Below are positions 22,108 to 37,469 of a DNA stretch of 40,617 nucleotides, one piece after another. The DNA comes from Candidatus Muproteobacteria bacterium. GTDB lineage: Bacteria; Pseudomonadota; Gammaproteobacteria; Acidiferrobacterales; SPGG2. The position numbers and the translations under genes were made by a program. Numbering within the stretch: position 1 is the first letter of the stretch; every line of letters begins with the position of its first letter. The notes under the pieces were generated by a model. That model did no database searches, was not told the origin of the DNA, and saw only the letters and a list, made by a program, of their open reading frames with translations. Where the stretch lies: positions 1 through 40,617 of the forward strand of contig QKEI01000298.1 of the NCBI GenBank assembly GCA_003251795.1. The letters run 5' to 3'.

Positions 22108-24969
22108 ATGCGGCTACTCGTATTCGCGCTTTTCTTCCTTTCCGGAGCATGTGGTCTCGTCTACCAGATCGTCTGGATCCGGATGCTCACGCATGTGTTC
22201 GGCACGACGGCAGCCGCGGTAGGCGTAGTACTGGCCGCTTTCATGTCGGGGCTTGCGCTCGGGAGTTGGTTACTCGGAAAAGCGGCGGACCGCAATTCCA
22301 ATCCGCTTCGCTTCTATGCCATTCTGGAGGTCGGCATTGGCCTTACAGCACTCGGCGCGCACTTTCTGCTGTCGCGGATCACGCCAATATATCTCACGCT
22401 ATACGAGATCTCAGGAAATTCAGAAGTAACGCTGGCGGCGACGCGTTTCGTCCTAGCCTTCGGTCTGGTGATGATACCGACCTTCCTCATGGGTGGGACG
22501 CTACCGGTGCTCGCGCGGTTCGTTGTCAGACGTCTCGCGGCGGCTGGTGCTGATCTCAGCACGCTCTATGCCATCAATACCATGGGCGCGGTCGCCGGAA
22601 CCCTGGCGTGTGGTTTTTACCTCATTGGAACCTTTGGCGTCCACGTAACTGTCTACATCGCGGTCGTGGGTAATCTGGGCCTTGGCTTGATTGCATGGGG
22701 TATGTCCAGCCATGTGAAGGCGGCACTAGCAACCATGACGGCTCGGACCGACGCAATTCCTACAGCGGGCGAGCCAGGTCCGGGCGTGCTTTCGAACACA
22801 ACCTATGCGTTGCTTCTCTTTGCCCTGGCTATCTCTGGTCTCACGTCCTTTGCCTATGAGATCTATTGGACACGCTCACTCGTGTTCGTGCTGGGGAATT
22901 CGACTTACGCGCTCACCACCATGCTCACGGCATTTATCGCCGGCATCGCGCTCGGTGGTTACCTGGTGCGCTGGGTCGTGGATCAGGTAGCGGACCGGCT
23001 GGCTCTTTTTGGTTGGATCCAGGTACTCATCGCCGTATCCTCGGCAATCGTGCTGCCGGTGCTTTTTGCGTTCCTTGAGCCACAGACGATTCGCGAATTT
23101 CTGCGCGACACAACCGGCGAAGTAGCGATCCTCACCGTCGCACGTTTTAGCATTGCGCTGCTCGTGATGCTGGTCCCGGCGACGTTGATCGGCGCGACAT
23201 TCCCGCTGGTAGGACGTGTAGGTATCGTCGACCTTCAGTACACGGGTCGGCGCGTTGGAATGGTCTACGCCAGCAACACCTTCGGTAATGTAGTCGGTGC
23301 CCTGCTGCCCGGCTTCCTGCTATTGAACTGGTTCGGCATCCAGCAGGGCATCCTGCTAATGGCAGCGTTAAATGCGTGCATTGGATTCGCGTTTCTGGCT
23401 TCACGCCTGGTTAGCGCCGTGCATTTGCGCTGGGCCGTACCTGCGGCGGCTGTGGGCACGCTCGTGGTTCTCGCGCATGTGCCGCTCGATTTTCAGTTTC
23501 CCACAGAAAATGAGCGGCCGACGGACCAAGTTCTCTTCTACCGCGACGGGCCGTCGGCCACGACTAAGGTAACGTTCAATCGGGAGACCGGCGAGAAGGT
23601 AATGGCCATCGATGGGATAGTTATCGGTGGGAACACGTTCACAGAGTACAAGCAATTGTTGCTGGCCCACTTGCCTAAGCTGCTGCGGGATGACGTTTCA
23701 ACCGAACTGTCGGTTGGGCTTGGTTCCGGCATACTGGCCGGCGAAAGCATTCGCCATCAGCGAGTGAAAGCGATCACTTGCGTGGAGATCGAGCCGAGCG
23801 TGGTCATGGGAGCGACGCTCTTTGCCCGCGAAAACCACCGCGTCCTGTCCAACCCGCGTGTACGCGTCGTGATCGACGATATCGCGAATTACTTGCGAAT
23901 CACCTCTGACCGATATCACGTGATATCCGCCGACGAGAAGACAGCACTCGAATACGCGTCCAACGGATTTTCCTACTCCCGGGAATACTATGGCTTGCTC
24001 CGGCGACACCTGGCACCCGGCGGCATCTTAATTCAGTGGGTGCCAGCAGACTTACCACCAAGGCTATACAAGATAGTCCTAAAGACTTTCGCCAACAGTT
24101 TTCCCCACGTGCTGATGGGTCACTTTATGCCCGCACTCAAGGATAGTGGCTTGAACACGATACTAGTTGGCTCGGATGAAAAGATCTCGCTCGACAATAG
24201 TCGCATCGGCCGGGTTATGGGGTCCGAGAGTGAAGCATTTGCCGGGCTTGCCCGTTACGGTCTGACGACGCCGGAATCGGTGGTGGCCCAGTTCGTCGCG
24301 GACGGGAAGTTCATCCGCCAGGCGGTCCTTGATGCGCCCCAAAATACACTGGTGCATCCCCGCTATGAATTCTACTCGCTGCGTGAGTATGCCGTTTCGC
24401 TCAAGCAGCGGTCGGCCGCGAACATCGAATTTATTGCGGCTCTTAAGCGTGCCGCTGCACCCGACTTTCTGGCGGCGATCAAGGTGCGCGGTCAGGAGGA
24501 AGCGAGAAGGCTCAGTCGCGCGCTCGACGCCGAGCAGGCATACCTCGCCGGCTATCACCTGAGTCTGAGCCCGGGACCGGTGTCAGGGATGGAAATAGTT
24601 CGTCAATATGATACGGCGCTAGCGCTCGCACCCTGGAATGAGAGTTTGCGTGCCCGCATCTTCCTGCACTATTCCTACATCGCCGCCTCGCAAACCAACG
24701 TTAGTGTCAAGGCCTATCTCATGGAGCGCGCGCTGTCCGTCTACAGCAAGAGCGCCATGGGGTATGTCGATTACAGCCGAGTCTTGGGCAAGCTGCACAA
24801 ACCGGAACGCGCGCTGGCAGCAGCGCGCAAAGCGGTAGAGCTCGATCCCACTCTCCTTGCAGCGCGGCGCACACTCGCCGACCTCCTGCTGAAAACCGGG
24901 AAACAGGCCGAGGCGCAAACGCACTTGCGGGCACTAGCCGAACTGCAAGAACCGACCGATAGTAATTAA
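22108..24969 (+). CDS. Fused membrane transporter-like / spermidine-synthase-like protein with TPR tail
   Basis: A 953-residue multidomain protein. Residues 1-440 hold two blocks of hydrophobic helices, each opening with a similar motif (SGACGLVYQIVWIRMLTHVFG and SGLTSFAYEIYWTRSLVFVLG), so the membrane half is itself duplicated. Residues about 470-690 are a spermidine-synthase-like Rossmann domain: GLGSGILAGES (AdoMet-type glycine loop), VEIEPSVV (acidic ribose-binding position), ISADEKT (region of the catalytic Asp) and APGGILIQWVP. The C-terminal 120 residues form TPR-like repeats. The architecture is widespread, but its substrate is not established. The gene converges on a SpeD-like gene 64 bp away, which hints at polyamine-type chemistry. 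Confidence 0.87.
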   Translation: MRLLVFALFFLSGACGLVYQIVWIRMLTHVFGTTAAAVGVVLAAFMSGLALGSWLLGKAADRNSNPLRFYAILEVGIGLTALGAHFLLSRITPIYLTLYEISGNSEVTLAATRFVLAFGLVMIPTFLMGGTLPVLARFVVRRLAAAGADLSTLYAINTMGAVAGTLACGFYLIGTFGVHVTVYIAVVGNLGLGLIAWGMSSHVKAALATMTARTDAIPTAGEPGPGVLSNTTYALLLFALAISGLTSFAYEIYWTRSLVFVLGNSTYALTTMLTAFIAGIALGGYLVRWVVDQVADRLALFGWIQVLIAVSSAIVLPVLFAFLEPQTIREFLRDTTGEVAILTVARFSIALLVMLVPATLIGATFPLVGRVGIVDLQYTGRRVGMVYASNTFGNVVGALLPGFLLLNWFGIQQGILLMAALNACIGFAFLASRLVSAVHLRWAVPAAAVGTLVVLAHVPLDFQFPTENERPTDQVLFYRDGPSATTKVTFNRETGEKVMAIDGIVIGGNTFTEYKQLLLAHLPKLLRDDVSTELSVGLGSGILAGESIRHQRVKAITCVEIEPSVVMGATLFARENHRVLSNPRVRVVIDDIANYLRITSDRYHVISADEKTALEYASNGFSYSREYYGLLRRHLAPGGILIQWVPADLPPRLYKIVLKTFANSFPHVLMGHFMPALKDSGLNTILVGSDEKISLDNSRIGRVMGSESEAFAGLARYGLTTPESVVAQFVADGKFIRQAVLDAPQNTLVHPRYEFYSLREYAVSLKQRSAANIEFIAALKRAAAPDFLAAIKVRGQEEARRLSRALDAEQAYLAGYHLSLSPGPVSGMEIVRQYDTALALAPWNESLRARIFLHYSYIAASQTNVSVKAYLMERALSVYSKSAMGYVDYSRVLGKLHKPERALAAARKAVELDPTLLAARRTLADLLLKTGKQAEAQTHLRALAELQEPTDSN

Positions 24970-25033: not shown

Positions 25034-25390
25034 CTAAAACGAGTGATACTCAATCTCAGACGCAGCGAAGAACTTCCTCGTATAGCTTAGCGCACTCGCG
25101 GTATTGAACTTCTTGCATGTAAAGAGAAGAGAGGCAAAGAACTTTGCTGAGGTCCACACATACAGCGATATGCCGGAATCTATCAGCGGTATGAATGCAT
25201 CGAAACCTTCATTCTCTTCTTTTCCAAGACCGCCAGGTGCATGAACCGTAGGTGTGCCGTAGGTTCGCAAATCCAAGTGGGAAGCAAGTCCCAACAGATA
25301 CGATTCCACCACCGTTTGATCGATATCGATGGTATAGAGTCCTTCTATTAGGAGCCGCTGACGGGTAATTTGCGGAGCGAGGTCTCTCAT
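25034..25390 (-). CDS. SpeD-like protein (AdoMet decarboxylase family) lacking the canonical active-site His
   Basis: A 118-residue protein with the layout of short S-adenosylmethionine decarboxylases: DLAPQITRQRLLIEG at the N-terminus, DSGISLYVW in the processing region, FTCKKF, and a C-terminal SYTRKFFAASEIEYHSF. Against Thermotoga AdoMetDC, Ser63 (pyruvoyl serine), His68 and Cys83 map to Ser72, Tyr77 and Cys92, with identical spacings of 5 and 20. The serine and cysteine are kept, but the histidine needed for self-processing is Tyr and the residue before Ser is Asp not Glu. It may have another decarboxylase activity or none. ATG 25390 is preferred; a TTG lies two codons upstream. Confidence 0.68.
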   Translation of the reverse strand: MRDLAPQITRQRLLIEGLYTIDIDQTVVESYLLGLASHLDLRTYGTPTVHAPGGLGKEENEGFDAFIPLIDSGISLYVWTSAKFFASLLFTCKKFNTASALSYTRKFFAASEIEYHSF

Positions 25391-25528: not shown

Positions 25529-25542
25529 TTGATCTAGGTCAA
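25529..25542 (+). promoter_or_regulatory. FNR/Anr-type box upstream of the SpoIIAA-like gene
   Basis: TTGATCTAGGTCAA matches the FNR/Anr consensus TTGAT-N4-ATCAA at nine of ten positions. It is identical to the site at 35098-35111. The centre is about 69 nt before the ATG at 25605. A -10-like TAAAAG lies at 25564-25569, close to the class II spacing. Activation under low oxygen is inferred. Confidence 0.7.
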
Positions 25543-25604
25543 CGAATCCAGTATCTATAGTAGTAAAAGTACGCAGATTGGATTGGGGAAACAAAGGAAG
25601 AAGA

Positions 25605-26058: not shown

Positions 26059-27741
26059 TTACAAACGTGGCTGTGCACTTAGTGTCCCGAGGTAGCCGCA
26101 TGGACACACGTCAATACACTTGCCACATCCCTCGCACGCGTCAAGCGATAAGACAAAGTAGCGACCCGGTGCCGGGGATTCGAGTCGAACAAACCCCTGT
26201 GCGTTGCAGTACATCCAGCAATGCTGGCAGCCGAAACAGGATCCGCAGGACAGGCAACGTTTCGTTTCGTTCAGAAATTCGTCCTCCGAAATCGTTGCAG
26301 AGACCTCGAGGTGCGGGTCGCTCAAGCGTGTTTCCACCTCTACTTCCGGCATTGCGACACGGAAACTCTCTGGATAAAAGTCAGTCTCTATGTGTTCCCC
26401 GTCGATTGCCGTGCCGTTCGGCGCCGGCTGCGGTTCCGGCAAACCTCGCAGGCGTGCATGCATCCGTTCCGCCGCCGCCCGACCCTGGGCGATCGCATGG
26501 CTTGCGATGTCCAATCCCGTGATGTCCCCTCCAGCCGAAATCGCACCATCCTGTTGGTCGGCCGCTCGCAACCAACCGTCCCCGCGGTGTAACTCCTCGA
26601 GCGCCGACCAGTCCGGCTCCTGAGAAATGGCGTTGACCACGGTCGAGGCGAGTACCGTAGATATGGCTCCTTCGATGGGTACCGGTCGTGGCCTACCCGA
26701 AGCGTCAGGCTCACCCAACCTCATGCGCTGCACCTGTATTCCGGTCAGGTCTCCGGAGTCGGTGCGGATAAACGCGATGGGTGACGCAAGGTATTCGATT
26801 CGAACTCCTTCCTTGAGGGCCTCGTCGATTTCGATGTCGATCGCGGGCATCTCCGCTCGCGTACGCCGGTAGAGAATGGTCACGTTAGCTTGTTTGCGGC
26901 GAGCGACACGGGCGACATCGATCGCGGTGTTACCCCCGCCCACGACCACGACTTCTGTCCCGATCGGTATGTCTTCGCCGGAGTTGTGACGGCGCAGGAA
27001 CTCCGTCGCCGTCCAAGTATCCACCCCTGATTCACCGGCGAGTCCGAGATCTTTTCCTGCTTGGGCACCAAGACCAACAAAAAGCACCTCGTGGCGCGCC
27101 CGCAGCTCAGAAAACGGCAAATCCATACCGATCCTTGCATCCATCTCCAGACGCACGCCGAGATCGACGATTCGGTCAACTTCCGCCTCCAGCACGTGTC
27201 GTGGCAGCCTGAAATCGGGTATGCCGTAACGCAGCATACCGCCTGGTGCTGGGTGGCGGTCGTACACCGTCACCGCGTAACCGCGGCGTTGCATCTGATA
27301 GGCGAACGATAAACCAGCCGGCCCCGCACCGATGACGCCGACAGATTCCGGTTTGGCATCTGCCTCCAGTACCGGTAGCGACAGTCCCTGTTGGATCGCC
27401 CAATCGCCAATAAAACGTTCCAACGCATTCACTGCGATGGCACCGTCTTTGTCCTTTCGATTGCAGTCTGCCTCACAAGGATGGGGGCATATTCGCCCCA
27501 TCGTCGCCGGAAACGGGTTGCACTCGACGATGCGACTCCACGCACGCGCATAGGCTTCTTCCTTGCTCAAGCCGATCCGATCGTGCTGCGCGATGATGGC
27601 AATCCAATCACGGATGTTCGTTCCGCTCGGACAACCCGCTCGACAAGGTGGCAACTTATCGAGTTGCTCCGGTTGGATAATTTCTAGGCGAAACTCTCCC
27701 GTGAGTGCGGGTTCGCTGCGCCGTTTCTCATCAGTCTCCAT
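26059..27741 (-). CDS. DsrL/GltD-like iron-sulphur flavoprotein oxidoreductase
   Basis: A 560-residue NAD(P)H-linked oxidoreductase of the glutamate-synthase small-subunit family. The N-terminal Fer4_20 module has C33, C37 and CPHPCEADC (85-93). The FAD loop GVIGAGPAG lies at 135-143 and the NAD(P) loop VVVVGGGNTAIDVARVARR near 275. Unlike GltD, it carries a C-terminal two-cluster ferredoxin region: CLSCGSCFGCQHCWMYC and CEGCGKCIDVCPCGYL. That arrangement resembles DsrL of sulphur oxidisers, where it links NADH to a redox partner, but no dsr genes are here. It probably moves electrons between NAD(P)H and a ferredoxin-level partner. It is the last gene of a three-gene overlapping operon (11 bp overlap with the cNMP gene). 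Confidence 0.86.
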   Translation of the reverse strand: METDEKRRSEPALTGEFRLEIIQPEQLDKLPPCRAGCPSGTNIRDWIAIIAQHDRIGLSKEEAYARAWSRIVECNPFPATMGRICPHPCEADCNRKDKDGAIAVNALERFIGDWAIQQGLSLPVLEADAKPESVGVIGAGPAGLSFAYQMQRRGYAVTVYDRHPAPGGMLRYGIPDFRLPRHVLEAEVDRIVDLGVRLEMDARIGMDLPFSELRARHEVLFVGLGAQAGKDLGLAGESGVDTWTATEFLRRHNSGEDIPIGTEVVVVGGGNTAIDVARVARRKQANVTILYRRTRAEMPAIDIEIDEALKEGVRIEYLASPIAFIRTDSGDLTGIQVQRMRLGEPDASGRPRPVPIEGAISTVLASTVVNAISQEPDWSALEELHRGDGWLRAADQQDGAISAGGDITGLDIASHAIAQGRAAAERMHARLRGLPEPQPAPNGTAIDGEHIETDFYPESFRVAMPEVEVETRLSDPHLEVSATISEDEFLNETKRCLSCGSCFGCQHCWMYCNAQGFVRLESPAPGRYFVLSLDACEGCGKCIDVCPCGYLGTLSAQPRL

Positions 27742-28153
27742 GTATGCGCCTTCCCGTGGATGGCTCTGCGGACGTTGTTTCGCGCCCGAGTTCTTGCTTT
27801 AAGGTGGCCACCTCCAAATCCAACTTTCGCACGCGCTGAGACATGACCTTCAGTACAGTCAGCGCCAGGGAGGGATCTTCTTGGACCCGACGAATGAAGG
27901 TCTTCTTATCAACGGTCATGATGCGGGCTGGCGAAGACGCACGTACGGTCGATGATCGAACGGTGTGCTCGATAATGGCCATTTCGCCGAAGATGTCTCC
28001 GGTGTGCATGGTGTCGACAACAGTCTGGACACCGTTCTCCTCCTTCAATACCTCCACGTCACCGTCCTGGATGACATACATGCAGTCACCCAGGTCCCCC
28101 TGACGCACGATGATCTCTCCGGGACGATATGTTTTGCCGAGTACGTCTGTCAT
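27731..28153 (-). CDS. Stand-alone cyclic-nucleotide-binding-domain protein
   Basis: A 140-residue protein with a single CRP-type cNMP-binding barrel and no DNA-binding helix-turn-helix. The opening RPGEIIVRQGDLGDCMYVIQDGDVEVL is followed by the phosphate-binding cassette GDIFGEMAIIEHTVRSSTVRA, with the conserved Glu and Arg. A C-terminal helix (about 105-125) ends in a short polar tail. It may act as a small regulatory subunit sensing cAMP or a related ligand. It overlaps the upstream FAD gene by 4 bases (ATGA) and the downstream flavoprotein by 11, so the three are translated together. Direct control of the two flavoproteins by ligand binding is an inference. Confidence 0.85.
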   Translation of the reverse strand: MTDVLGKTYRPGEIIVRQGDLGDCMYVIQDGDVEVLKEENGVQTVVDTMHTGDIFGEMAIIEHTVRSSTVRASSPARIMTVDKKTFIRRVQEDPSLALTVLKVMSQRVRKLDLEVATLKQELGRETTSAEPSTGRRIHGD

Positions 28154-29676
28154 GACACCATGGTCTTGTCTTCTCTTACCCTTGCGTTAGGGGCATTGCC
28201 AGCAATCAAGTTCCACGCCAGGCCGCCGATAAAAGCCGGATGAAGCGTGCGAACCAGCACTTCGCGATATGGCGCACTGCCGGTGAATACGTCCCACAAT
28301 ACACTGCTCATCAGCCGCCTGCTGCTCGGGGTTGTTTGTTCGAGAAACGTCATGCGACGCACGGCGCGGCGGGAAAATCGAAGTTTCTGGATGAGATGAC
28401 ACACGCCAAAAATCAATCTTCCGATCATGTTATCCCGATCGATCGCCCGGCAGGCAGGCCAATATTGATGCGCAAACGCCTCCTCTGAGATCCCGTGTAG
28501 CGCTGCGGTCATCGCGGCTGCCTTGGATGTCCGGTAGGCCGCTCCGATGCCGTCTTTGTACAGACGCGAGACACCGCTGTCTCCTATCAGAACAAGACGA
28601 TTTGCAAATGGTTTACGCGCCTTGCGTACATTGATGCGTGGGAAGCAGTGGCAGCAGTTGGTTGGAACGGTTGCGCTGGGGAAACAGCGACGGACTTCAG
28701 GTGCGTTCAAGAACGTATTCACCAGCTGTTCGTCGATATTATCCCCGAGCATGCACATGGTGATGAAGTCTCCTTTCGGAATCAACGCGGCAAACTTCAG
28801 CCGTGGAATATCGAGCAGAAAGACGTGCATCGATGTGCCCAAATGTTGCTGAATCAAACGTTGACCCATGTGGAACTCGGCGATGAAAGTCGTCACCGCC
28901 GACGGAGTCTTATAACCCAGCCCGAGTTCTTCTATGATGTGCATAACCTGGCTGTTCACCCCGGACGCAACCACAAGCAGATCGTACGTTGCCTCCGCTC
29001 CATCCCCGCAAACCACGCGCGGACGACCCTCGGGCCACTTCACGTCAGTAACGAGCTTGTGCTGGACTGTTGCTCCATTGCTCACGGCCAAGTCGAGCAG
29101 GTACCGATCAAACCCCTCCGTCGTGATCCGTTCTGAAGTTCGCGGCCCGTTACCACGGTACACCGCAGCGATGCGCTTTTCGTGAAGCGGCGTATCGATC
29201 CGGACACTGCCAACGTCCATGTGAACCACGTATGAATCAATGCCACGCTGCACCACCTCGGCGGGCAACAGGATTCCCTCCGTGGCCAGAATCTGAACCA
29301 GTGATTCGGAAACGATACCGCCGCAGTGGTTGCACCCGGCGGGGCCGCAATGGTCGAAATGCCGAGGTTCGTAAATATCGACCGTGACCTCGGTATCGAT
29401 AAGCGCTAGCGTCTTGAGAAGAAAGAAGCTGAAGAGCGATCCGGCAGGACCACCACCGATGACCGCCACACGAGAACCTTGTGTTAGCTTAAGGTTATCC
29501 GCAACGGTTTCGCCAAACGTACCGCCATCGCCCGGTTGCCCTTCTTTGCTGACGCCCGAGCCCCAGGTTCTGGGATCACCCAGGACGCGCGCGATATCCG
29601 ATGCCAGAGGGCGTTCGTCCGTGTCGCCGTGGCCTCGCGCTGGGTCTCTCTCTCCTGTGCGAGGAGCTTTGGTCAT
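28150..29676 (-). CDS. FAD-dependent oxidoreductase (geranylgeranyl-reductase-like) with Cys cluster
   Basis: A 508-residue flavoprotein. After a 65-residue polar leader comes the FAD loop VAVIGGGPAGS (71-80). Soon after is an unusual C-x4-C-x2-C element, CGPAGCNHCGG (C110, C115, C118), which could hold a metal or act in redox chemistry. The second FAD motif is LVLIGDSGVSRLYKDGIGAAYRTSKAA near 370, as in geranylgeranyl reductase and halogenase-type proteins. The C-terminal 100 residues are basic with hydrophobic stretches (IGRLIFGVCHLIQKL, FIGGLAWNLIAG), suggesting membrane association. It is the first gene of the operon with the cNMP-binding protein and DsrL-like flavoprotein. Substrate unknown. 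Confidence 0.82.
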   Translation of the reverse strand: MTKAPRTGERDPARGHGDTDERPLASDIARVLGDPRTWGSGVSKEGQPGDGGTFGETVADNLKLTQGSRVAVIGGGPAGSLFSFFLLKTLALIDTEVTVDIYEPRHFDHCGPAGCNHCGGIVSESLVQILATEGILLPAEVVQRGIDSYVVHMDVGSVRIDTPLHEKRIAAVYRGNGPRTSERITTEGFDRYLLDLAVSNGATVQHKLVTDVKWPEGRPRVVCGDGAEATYDLLVVASGVNSQVMHIIEELGLGYKTPSAVTTFIAEFHMGQRLIQQHLGTSMHVFLLDIPRLKFAALIPKGDFITMCMLGDNIDEQLVNTFLNAPEVRRCFPSATVPTNCCHCFPRINVRKARKPFANRLVLIGDSGVSRLYKDGIGAAYRTSKAAAMTAALHGISEEAFAHQYWPACRAIDRDNMIGRLIFGVCHLIQKLRFSRRAVRRMTFLEQTTPSSRRLMSSVLWDVFTGSAPYREVLVRTLHPAFIGGLAWNLIAGNAPNARVREDKTMVS

Positions 29677-29692
29677 GCCGGGGCGGCTATTT

Positions 29693-29706
29693 AGTTACAC
29701 GTAACT
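29693..29706. promoter_or_regulatory. Palindromic operator-like site in the flavoprotein operon leader
   Basis: AGTTACACGTAACT is an inverted repeat with 6-bp arms and a 2-bp centre. It lies 17 nt upstream of the FAD gene's start codon. If the FNR-box promoter is used (start near 29707), it covers roughly +1 to +14, a classic repressor position. Further GTAAC half-sites (29815-29819 and 29824-29828) lie 100 bp upstream as a direct repeat. Confidence 0.45.
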
Positions 29707-29712
29707 CGGCCA

Positions 29713-29755
29713 CCTATACAGGGGTTGTGCGAAACATAACAATGATATGGATCAA
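29713..29755 (-). promoter_or_regulatory. FNR-type box and -10 of the flavoprotein operon
   Basis: ATGATATGGATCAA at 29742-29755 fits TGAT-N4-ATCA. On the leftward strand, TATAGG (29718-29713) makes a -10 placed so that the box is centred near -41.5, the class II activator position. The centre is 72 nt before the ATG at 29676, similar to the other two boxes in the window. The 332 bp between the FAD gene and the amidotransferase otherwise contains no gene. Confidence 0.6.
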
Positions 29756-34750: not shown

Positions 34751-35097
34751 GTGCCAACTAGAGAATTGAAGCGCTGGTCGCTGTACTTGGTGTCTCCTCG
34801 ATAGCTTTCGTATTAAGGCGCGACACTCCGGTTGATGATCGTATTTGGACACATCTGAGAACCGGTCCAGTCCGTATCCACAAATCTCTGCCAACGTTCG
34901 AAATGGTTGTATGTAGGCCGTTGCGCCATTGAAGCTATTGGCCGCTTCAGAGCACTTTCCCCACGATCGAGGTGCTTGCCGGAAGTACAGACGAAGCGTT
35001 CTTACCATGTAAGAGTCTGGCCGACGACGAATGTTTGTTTTTGAGCGGCCATCACAGCGCAGCCTCCGATAGTCAGGAAACGCGATCTTGACCGTCT
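34751..35097. other. Non-coding stretch before the multihaem lipoprotein
   Basis: About 350 bp without a supportable gene. A leftward open frame crosses it (34421-35008), but it is mostly the antisense of the methyltransferase and resembles nothing. The promoter elements of the multihaem gene begin at its right end. Confidence 0.4.
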
Positions 35098-35140
35098 TTG
35101 ATCTAGGTCAAGAAGAGCGGATCTGGGTTTGGGCTAAAAT
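35098..35140 (+). promoter_or_regulatory. FNR-type box with matching -10 upstream of the multihaem lipoprotein
   Basis: TTGATCTAGGTCAA at 35098-35111 is identical to the box at 25529. TAAAAT at 35135-35140 is a good -10 and places the box centre about 42 nt before the predicted transcription start (near 35147). This is the class II FNR activation geometry. The ATG at 35172 then has a leader of about 25 nt with GGAG 8 nt before the start. Confidence 0.75.
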
Positions 35141-35171
35141 GCCCAAATTCATCCTGCCCGGAGCATTAGCC

Positions 35172-37469
35172 ATGAAGCGCTTCTATCAGCTCGCGATCGT
35201 GGGATTTCCTCTCTTTGTGGCTGGCTGCGGCGGCGGTGGTGGTTCTGACGGCGCAGCGTCCACAGGCGCGTCGATACGGGGGACCGTGCCGGGGACAACG
35301 ATCGAAGCGCTTGGCGACAACGGCTCGTACTATGTCGTCCAATCGCATAATGACGGCACCCAGCGGCATCCATTCAAGCTTCAGCTACCCTCAGGTCTCG
35401 GTTTTCATCTCGTCATGATTACAGGACAAGGGACGCCCGACGAGGTGGTGATACCCATTGGGTACCGCGATTCGGCGAACAATCTCCGAACCCGTTTCAT
35501 GCTCGGCAAAGGAGACGTGGTCGATTTGGGCTATATCCCGCTGCCCATGGGTAGATATGCTGCAGCGGCACATGATCTCGACAGTGACGGTGTGTTCGAC
35601 ATGCCGCTGTTACTGGACGACGTGGGAGCCAAAAACCCTTTGAAGCAAACCCATGTTAACCAGAAAGGCATTACCGACTGGGATGATTCAAAGAACGGCG
35701 GATACCACTACGACACTAATACGATTGATCCTCAAGACGTGAATGGTGACGGTATTCCCAACCTTTATGACCGGCGTTACGTACGCAGGGAAAATGACAG
35801 CGATGGAGATGGCTTGCCGAACAACGTCGATGCGAATCCCTACAACGACAGCAAGCATGGCAACCACGATATATCAGATGATCGTGATGGAGACGGCTAT
35901 AGCGACAAGGACCGAAACCACGACGGTTTCTGTGATGATGACAGGGACCGCGACGGGTATTGCGACGAACCGGCCCCAGCCCCGACACCTACACCTACGC
36001 CTACGCCTACGCCGACAACGGGGGAGGCGCTGTACAACAGCAACTGCGCCGGCTGCCACGACGGCGAAGCCCTCGCTGGCGGCGGACGCCAGGTGCTCGG
36101 CGCGCGTGAGTGCTCGATCAAAAGCGCGATCTATGGCACCTCGGCGTTCCCGGATGGCGTACCGACGATGCAGTTCCTGAAAGGACTGCTTTCTGATGCG
36201 GAGATCAGGCAGATCGCCGACTTTTTGAACCAGGGCACCGTGACGGGCCAGCAGCGCTACATCACCGCATGCGCGGGTTGTCACGGTATCGACGCGCGGG
36301 GTGGGCCCACGGGAGAGGGCGTGTGGGGCGAGAACGGCAGCGAGATTCGCGAATACATCTACGAAGAGCGCGATATGCGCTTCTTGAGCTGCCTCCCACG
36401 TTCTGACACCGATGCGATGAGTATTTACCTTACGGGCAAAGAACCACCGACGCCTACGCCTACAAACCAACCGCCAACGGCCAATCCGAACGGCCCGTAC
36501 GGCGGTGCAGTCGGTTCCCCGGTAAGCTTTAACGGCTCGGGGTCCGCGGATACCGACGGCACAATCGTTACCTACGCTTGGAACTTTGGTGATGGTACTA
36601 CGGGTAGCGGGGTGTCACCGACGCACACTTACGCCAGCGCAGGCACATTTACCGTCACGCTGACTGTGACCGACGATGGCGGCGCGACCGCCACGGCGAC
36701 CACCAGTGCCAGCATCGGCTTGTCCACGAACCAGCCACCGACGGCCAATCCGAACGGCCCATACAGCGCGCTGGCGAATCAGGCGATCCTATTCGACGCG
36801 ACAGGCTCCACAGATCCGGACGGCACCATCGTTCAGTACGACTGGAACTTTGGCGACGGCACTGTTATGGCGAACGCGGGTCCCCAACCGACACACATCT
36901 ACACGACAGACGGTACTTTCACCGTCACGCTCAGTGTGACCGATGACGGCGGCGCAACCGCCACGGCGACCACCAGCGCCAACATCGGCGCGTCCACCCC
37001 TCCGCCACCTCTCGGCACGCTCACGCCGAGCTGTGGCTCTGCATGTCACGGACTTCCGCCGGTAATCGTAACGGGCGGCTTTGGAGGGGGCGCGGCGACG
37101 AACATGCCCCACACGGCTAGTAACACGTGCGGCACGTGTCACGTGATCGGTGGCTGGGTACCGGGAACGACGACGTTCGACATGACGAATGTGGCCTCGC
37201 ATAACAACGGCACGCTCGACATCCGCAGCGACCTGCCCACACCGAGTTGCGGTGCATGCCATGGACTGCCTCCACCGCCCAATCCCGCGCAGGGTTTGCC
37301 GACCGTGTCGTCCCCAGCGGGCTACTCGATCACGGGTATCCACCCATCAGGGAAGAGCTACATGTCGAGCTGTGGTGCGTGCCACCCCGTTGGTCCGGGC
37401 AGCCCCTTCACCACCATGCCAGCTACCCATACCGCAATCGGGGGAGGCGTACTCAACTTTAATCCCTAG
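35172..37469 (+). CDS. Multihaem c-type cytochrome lipoprotein with Ca-type repeats and PKD domains
   Basis: 765 residues. The lipobox is FVAGC with Cys19, followed by a Gly-rich linker, so it is a surface or periplasmic lipoprotein. After a beta-rich N-terminal domain, residues about 185-268 carry thrombospondin-type-3-like Asp repeats (DSDGDGLPNNVD, DRDGDGYSD, DRDRDGYCD). A Pro-Thr linker leads to two cytochrome c units with CAGCH at 292 and 367. Two near-identical PKD domains follow (about 432-607), then a tail with CGSACH (621), CGTCH (653), CGACH (693) and CGACH (734). Six haem sites suggest electron transfer across the periplasm or outer surface. ATG 35172 is chosen for the lipoprotein signal and GGAG. 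Confidence 0.88.
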   Translation: MKRFYQLAIVGFPLFVAGCGGGGGSDGAASTGASIRGTVPGTTIEALGDNGSYYVVQSHNDGTQRHPFKLQLPSGLGFHLVMITGQGTPDEVVIPIGYRDSANNLRTRFMLGKGDVVDLGYIPLPMGRYAAAAHDLDSDGVFDMPLLLDDVGAKNPLKQTHVNQKGITDWDDSKNGGYHYDTNTIDPQDVNGDGIPNLYDRRYVRRENDSDGDGLPNNVDANPYNDSKHGNHDISDDRDGDGYSDKDRNHDGFCDDDRDRDGYCDEPAPAPTPTPTPTPTPTTGEALYNSNCAGCHDGEALAGGGRQVLGARECSIKSAIYGTSAFPDGVPTMQFLKGLLSDAEIRQIADFLNQGTVTGQQRYITACAGCHGIDARGGPTGEGVWGENGSEIREYIYEERDMRFLSCLPRSDTDAMSIYLTGKEPPTPTPTNQPPTANPNGPYGGAVGSPVSFNGSGSADTDGTIVTYAWNFGDGTTGSGVSPTHTYASAGTFTVTLTVTDDGGATATATTSASIGLSTNQPPTANPNGPYSALANQAILFDATGSTDPDGTIVQYDWNFGDGTVMANAGPQPTHIYTTDGTFTVTLSVTDDGGATATATTSANIGASTPPPPLGTLTPSCGSACHGLPPVIVTGGFGGGAATNMPHTASNTCGTCHVIGGWVPGTTTFDMTNVASHNNGTLDIRSDLPTPSCGACHGLPPPPNPAQGLPTVSSPAGYSITGIHPSGKSYMSSCGACHPVGPGSPFTTMPATHTAIGGGVLNFNP
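35982..36017 (+). repeat. Hexanucleotide tandem repeat encoding Pro-Thr linker
   Basis: Six in-frame CCTACG/CCTACA/CCGACA units encode alternating Pro-Thr between the Asp-repeat region and the first haem domain. Units of six bases keep the frame, so copy-number slippage would only change linker length. Confidence 0.85.
36467..36993 (+). repeat. Two tandem PKD-domain repeats (DNA-level duplication)
   Basis: Copies at about 36467-36717 and 36731-36993 encode matching PKD domains: both contain PPTANPNGPY, then a WNFGDGT core, then FTVTL.VTDDGGATATATTSA. The DNA is also closely similar at both ends of each copy, indicating recent duplication or gene conversion. Confidence 0.85.

Follow-up and report, generated by a model that had tools for sequence, protein, structure and literature searches.

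The window analysed here is the whole 40,617-nucleotide stretch of contig QKEI01000298.1 (C70) from a Candidatus Muproteobacteria genome, and its subject is a three-gene operon on the minus strand, between positions 29676 and 26059. P1 (28150..29676) encodes a 508-amino-acid FAD oxidoreductase belonging to an unnamed family within the geranylgeranyl reductase (GGR)/FixC superfamily. P2 (27731..28153) encodes a 140-amino-acid stand-alone cyclic-nucleotide-binding domain (CNBD) with a FGEMAIIEHTVRSS cassette, and P3 (26059..27741) a 560-amino-acid NAD(P)H flavoprotein that resembles GltD and DsrL and carries a ferredoxin domain at its C-terminus. The P1 and P2 reading frames share 4 bases and those of P2 and P3 share 11, in agreement with the overlaps given in the original prediction, which had been made from the sequence of this DNA alone. 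The host genome comprises 3.67 Mb in 306 contigs (94.6% complete, 4.9% contamination). The GC content of the operon (0.578) was close to that of the window (0.572), its tetranucleotide correlation was within the range of other window segments, and both measures agreed with other contigs of the genome. Contamination or a recent foreign insertion was ruled out on these grounds.

Upstream of P1, an FNR/DNR-type box, TTGATCCATATCAT (29742..29755, minus strand), differs from the consensus TTGAT-N4-ATCAA by one mismatch, and the distance from its centre to the start codon of P1 is 72 bases. A putative −10 element, TATAGG, was read from the sequence at 29713..29718 on the same strand. Its spacing, measured by hand, would place the centre of the box approximately 41.5 bases upstream of the predicted transcription start, which is the class II FNR geometry. 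When the P1 upstream region was shuffled, the box score was equalled in 2 of 200 trials, and boxes with at most one mismatch occurred 194 times genome-wide, compared with 15 occurrences of a reversed control pattern. Regulators of both kinds are encoded in the genome, L124 being an FNR with a cysteine cluster and L116 a DNR-like protein, so that a box near −41.5, a putative −10 element and an FNR-type regulator, as looked for in a class II promoter, are all present. Box, spacing, genome-wide excess and regulators agree with the earlier proposal of an FNR-type promoter ahead of the operon, and the operon would thus be under FNR control. Further FNR-like boxes with one mismatch were seen in the window at 25316, 25529 and 35098; two of these sit just upstream of a SpoIIAA-like gene at 25578, and the sequence TTGATCTAGGTCAA occurs twice, at 25529 and 35098.

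Analysis of P1 gave a weak match to the GGR model TIGR02032 (35.1 bits, E = 1e-8, cut-off 158.8 bits) and a match to Pfam Pyr_redox_2 that was below threshold. The protein contains the motifs GGGPAG, GCNHCGG, CHC and LIGDSGVSRLYKDGIG, and the family signature reads GGGPAG...GCNxCGG...P-x3-FA-x3-PKG...CxC...GDxxxxRLYKDGIG. Residues C115, C342 and C344 were invariant, even at 31–35% identity. C118, in the CGG-type motif GCNHCGG, was nearly invariant, being present in 18 of the 22 sequences in the alignment of P1 relatives; it was matched to the catalytic Cys47 of GGR through the motif rather than by structure superposition. The earlier label of a Cys-cluster FAD reductase holds in that this is a FAD family with invariant cysteines, but it is a descriptive one, as these residues may hold either a cluster or a disulfide.

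P1 shares with the GGR family (TIGR02032, including ChlP/BchP and archaeal GGR) the FAD fold, the GxGxxG and LxGD motifs, and a CGG cysteine motif near the flavin. It differs in scoring far under the family cut-off, in its additional invariant C115, C342 and C344, and in its RLYKDG motif. The PxxYxWxFP cavity motif of GGR was absent from P1 and its relatives, the aligned region reading PRLKFAALIPKG in P1 and much alike in the others. The cut-off and the lack of the cavity motif rule out P1 as a GGR proper. Archaeal GGR genes often adjoin ferredoxin genes (PMC10821996). A search of the PDB with a profile of 22 P1 relatives returned just distant FAD enzymes, halogenases and FixC. The AlphaFold model (pLDDT 83.5, residues 1–58 poorly predicted) gave Foldseek matches to structures of kynurenine monooxygenase, FixC and squalene epoxidase at a TM-score of ~0.55. 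Structures of FixC/ETF:quinone oxidoreductase and kynurenine monooxygenase were the best fold matches, including the C-terminal helical part, but at 12–17% identity they have the superfamily alone in common with P1. Judged from these comparisons, P1 is a distant relative of GGR and FixC, in a family without a name.

P2 consists of a single cNMP_binding domain (Pfam PF00027, E = 7e-22, 77.7 bits against a gathering score of 27.5). Its predicted model shows a beta-roll with the FGE...RS cassette and one long C-helix, residues 95–127, after which the protein stops. No DNA-binding or helix-turn-helix domain was matched in Pfam or NCBIfam. The absence of a helix-turn-helix rules out a truncated CRP/FNR regulator, and profiles and model bear out the earlier description of a stand-alone CNBD lacking a DNA-binding domain.

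The ligand pocket was compared with that of Bd1971 from Bdellovibrio, a CNBD-EAL protein that acts as a cAMP-sensing c-di-GMP phosphodiesterase and has a CNBD of the same type (PMC6717892). In the solved cAMP complex of Bd1971, the contacts are made by E58 (ribose), M59, R67/S68 (phosphate) and R108 (base cap), and the cassette reads F56GEMALIDNQNRSA (PMC6717892). Alignment over equal lengths (query 12–111 on chain 10–109) placed F55-G-E57-M58, R66-S67 and R107 of P2 on F56-G-E58-M59, R67-S68 and R108 of Bd1971. By these residues the pocket of P2 is complete, and P2 would be expected to bind cAMP or cGMP. Both E57 and R66 were conserved throughout the 5 three-gene operons described below. Of 13 CNBD-GGDEF proteins, 12 retained them, but among 20 other Magnetococcal CNBDs this was true of only 8. 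The host encodes approximately 16 class III cyclase domains above cut-off, and a cyclic-nucleotide ligand is therefore likely to be available. The CNBD of Bd1971 governs an enzyme rather than DNA binding (PMC6717892), in likeness to the role proposed here for P2; unlike Bd1971, P2 stands as a polypeptide of its own, with a flavoprotein as the presumed target.

P3 combines Fer4_20, a Pyr_redox_2 FAD/NAD(P) core and a C-terminal two-[4Fe-4S] domain, as identified using Pfam and NCBIfam. It scored 518.1 bits against NF009410/PRK12771, barely over the cut-off of 516, and 239 and 164 bits against GltD models, under their cut-offs of 483 and 448. No GltB large subunit was found among the genes annotated around the operon. 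DsrL is an iron-sulfur flavoprotein NAD(P)H:acceptor oxidoreductase (PMC7596348), and P3 follows the same order of N-terminal Fe-S region, FAD/NAD(P) core, linker and C-terminal two-[4Fe-4S] ferredoxin. The linker before the ferredoxin domain is shorter, however, at ~65 residues (431 to 496) against ~100 in DsrL, and five N-terminal cysteines are invariant in P3, enough for one cluster, where GltD/DsrL-type proteins hold two. In the tree, P3 and four orthologues formed their own clade (100/99), with DsrL as sister at 80/80. P3 lies outside any dsr operon, and a 650-residue DsrL is encoded on another contig of the genome. The tree, the linker length and this separate DsrL rule out P3 as DsrL itself. 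The earlier description as a DsrL/GltD-like Fe-S flavoprotein was therefore right as to kinship with DsrL and domain order, though P3 stands in a clade apart from it, and the statement that no dsr genes are present applies to the window but not to the genome. There, contig C64 (L137) carries dsrAB within an apparent dsrABEFHCMKLJ operon that includes DsrL, in which dsrA was assigned by profile and the remaining genes by order and size. The host is probably a sulfur oxidiser.

A second relative of P3 in the host is a 542-residue NF009410/PRK12771-type paralogue on contig C127 (L138:6229-11466), with a perfect FNR box upstream and a pyruvate:ferredoxin oxidoreductase following. The two proteins have a matching domain layout but are 34% identical, and the paralogue adjoins pyruvate:ferredoxin oxidoreductase rather than P1 and a CNBD. 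P3 relatives thus work with other enzymes in this genome, in the one case with this oxidoreductase and in the other, as DsrL, within the dsr operon. P3 is one of a group of NAD(P)H input subunits that are interchangeable.

P1 was rare in the window's class, being found in 1 of 96 relatives and in 2 of 369 genomes from a second, overlapping draw, both counts including the window's own genome. Across the phylum it was present in 40 of 398 genomes; the other carriers apparently belong to the Magnetococcia, and most of them have two or three copies. A scan of GTDB contigs with an alignment-based query (a single-protein query gave no match) identified P1 in Betaproteobacteria, Gammaproteobacteria, Gemmatimonadota, Aminicenantes, Chloroflexota, Myxococcota (a Deltaproteobacterium), Verrucomicrobiota and Bacteroidota, with more distant matches in anammox bacteria and others. 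A search of plasmids for P1 gave no match.

A CNBD gene lay within 1 kb of P1 at 43 of 54 main-clade loci, from six phyla, and at none of 13 outgroup loci. Two of the 11 main-clade loci without a CNBD stop at a contig edge. The CNBD was downstream of P1 in 28 cases and upstream in 14, on the same strand; one further paired locus, L080 (Bacteroidota), is doubtful, with the CNBD on the opposite strand and the domain diverged. The Magnetococcia copies within this count are not independent. With 13 CNBDs in the host genome (3.7 Mb) and assuming ~3500 genes, we estimate that <1% of genes would adjoin a CNBD at random, so the pairing is not due to chance. At two loci (L050:8344-9164 and L051:9879-10678), P1 is followed by tandem CNBDs, the second of each pair having a diverged cassette.

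The complete three-gene set was found in four relatives, two Gammaproteobacteria, one Betaproteobacterium and one Gemmatimonadota. The order is P1-P2-P3 in L072, L073 and L097, and P2-P1-P3 in L078. Far from being rarely adjacent elsewhere, the gene families of the original prediction therefore recur together. The four relatives and the window form one clade in the P1 tree (90/95). As this clade draws on two phyla, transfer of the three-gene operon is suggested. The upstream box scored 9/10 in the window, was perfect in L072 and near in L097 (8/10), but none was found upstream of the operon in L073 or L078. The box is thus lineage-specific, and was rejected as a feature common to all three-gene operons.

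In other lineages, the CNBD beside P1 is joined to, or accompanied by, signalling proteins. Among 17 long Magnetococcia CNBD fusions scanned, 15 carried a GGDEF and 2 an HD-GYP domain; many are closely related, so that these numbers count proteins rather than independent cases, and one (L034), 6 kb from P1, was left out of the adjacency count. Examples adjoining P1 occur at L049:8086-8961, L053:10152-11159 and L071:8522-9559. The motifs of these fusions are degenerate, GGDEF reading RFGxDRF and HD reading YDIGN, and the proteins are for this reason probably not active c-di-GMP enzymes; an active c-di-GMP output was rejected accordingly. In Aminicenantes (L074:9094-12679), P1, a CNBD and an FHA-GAF-class III cyclase are consecutive on one strand, and at one locus in Magnetococcia a PAS histidine kinase comes next.

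P1 also recurs beside a second flavoprotein. In the outgroup, another Rossmann flavoprotein adjoins P1 or is fused to it, matching Pyr_redox_2 in L084 and appearing as a second P1-like match at L085, L086, L098 and L091–L093. In Anaerolineales (L075), a further Rossmann flavoprotein follows P1 and its CNBD. The chief argument for P3 as a putative electron donor to P1 is this recurrent pairing with varied partners. Fusions of ~890 residues, with a P1-like half and a second Rossmann flavoprotein half, were seen at L084:9926-12592, L085:6379-9036 and L098:9998-12697, their carriers being Chloroflexota, Aminicenantes and anammox bacteria.

These data are consistent with an NAD(P)H-driven reductase module in which FNR/DNR-controlled transcription is combined with cyclic-nucleotide gating, a mechanism for which, on the present sequence comparisons, we judge the case evenly balanced. 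Low oxygen or nitric oxide would induce transcription of the operon through the class II promoter. P3 would pass electrons from NAD(P)H to P1, which would in turn reduce a substrate that is probably hydrophobic or membrane-bound, such as an isoprenoid or quinone; this is the weakest step. P2, with cAMP or cGMP bound in its pocket, may gate P1 as a dissociable regulatory subunit. Action on P1 is preferred because the conserved pairing is with P1 rather than with P3. In other lineages, the P1-CNBD pair is retained with other partners, either degenerate GGDEF/HD-GYP fusions or a co-encoded class III cyclase.

Several observations weigh against this mechanism. P3 is missing from most P1-CNBD loci. 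The fold matches of P1 reach the superfamily level only, no close solved homologue emerged from profile and structure searches, and the GGR cavity motif is lacking. Some P1-linked CNBDs (L075, L055-type, L053, L071) have a changed pocket, which means that nucleotide binding is not shared by all of them. This last point bears on the possibility that P2 serves P1 in structure or assembly and has lost cyclic-nucleotide dependence, as the CNBD still adjoins P1 where the ribose Glu or phosphate Arg is gone (L060, L061 and L068, in addition to those just listed). The full cassette is nonetheless retained in the window protein and in all four three-gene relatives, and a cyclase comes after the CNBD of L074, making a purely structural role rather improbable. 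Alternatively, P1 may be a sensor whose flavin redox or ligand state is relayed through the CNBD to signalling outputs, P3 merely keeping P1 poised. The GGDEF-like and HD-GYP-like domains on Magnetococcia CNBD partners, the histidine kinase locus and the cyclase of L074 would fit such a role. In the window and its clade, however, the CNBD stands alone with no output domain, a dedicated electron-input enzyme exceeds the needs of a sensor, and the degenerate motifs make active outputs unlikely; we regard the sensor role as possible, though unlikely.

It is also conceivable that P1 pairs with P3 for flavin-based electron bifurcation in the manner of Nfn or Stn, with P2 as regulator, given that NfnL-type subunits and GltD-like modules from larger complexes are among the solved structures closest to P3 in sequence. 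The N-terminal cysteines of P3, sufficient for a single cluster where the GltD/DsrL type has two, and the absence of an NfnS-like or ETF partner from the operon make this very unlikely. Least probable of all is accidental co-transcription of three genes with unrelated jobs. The scarcity of P1 in the window's class, with only 2 genomes across the two overlapping draws, would suit an accessory element, but the three-gene set, present in more than one phylum, forms a single clade, and P1 stays paired with a CNBD in either gene order and among diverged paralogues. An accident is already contradicted by this neighbourhood conservation.

Tentatively, and with the doubt outweighing the confidence, we propose a widespread and undescribed system that puts an NAD(P)H-driven flavoprotein electron-transfer chain under the direct control of cAMP or cGMP, with a separate one-domain subunit as receptor; elsewhere, this receptor would have been re-wired to degenerate c-di-GMP-type domains or a co-encoded cyclase. 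In bacteria, cAMP is known chiefly as a transcription-factor signal, and few direct enzyme targets are known. If the proposal is true, a CNBD beside one flavoprotein family in six phyla, once with its own cyclase, would represent a direct metabolic effector route. It would also provide a first functional handle on a conserved, nameless FAD family without a close solved relative, and a new partner for the DsrL/GltD-type electron-transfer subunit. A literature search found no description of a CNBD with the P1 flavoprotein family; most subscription journals were outside its scope, and the novelty is provisional.

Two other multidomain proteins were noted in the window. In one, at 35088–37469, several PKD domains accompany a cytochrome c domain. 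The other, at 22108–24969, is 953 residues long and carries C-terminal TPR repeats in addition to a spermine/spermidine synthase domain.

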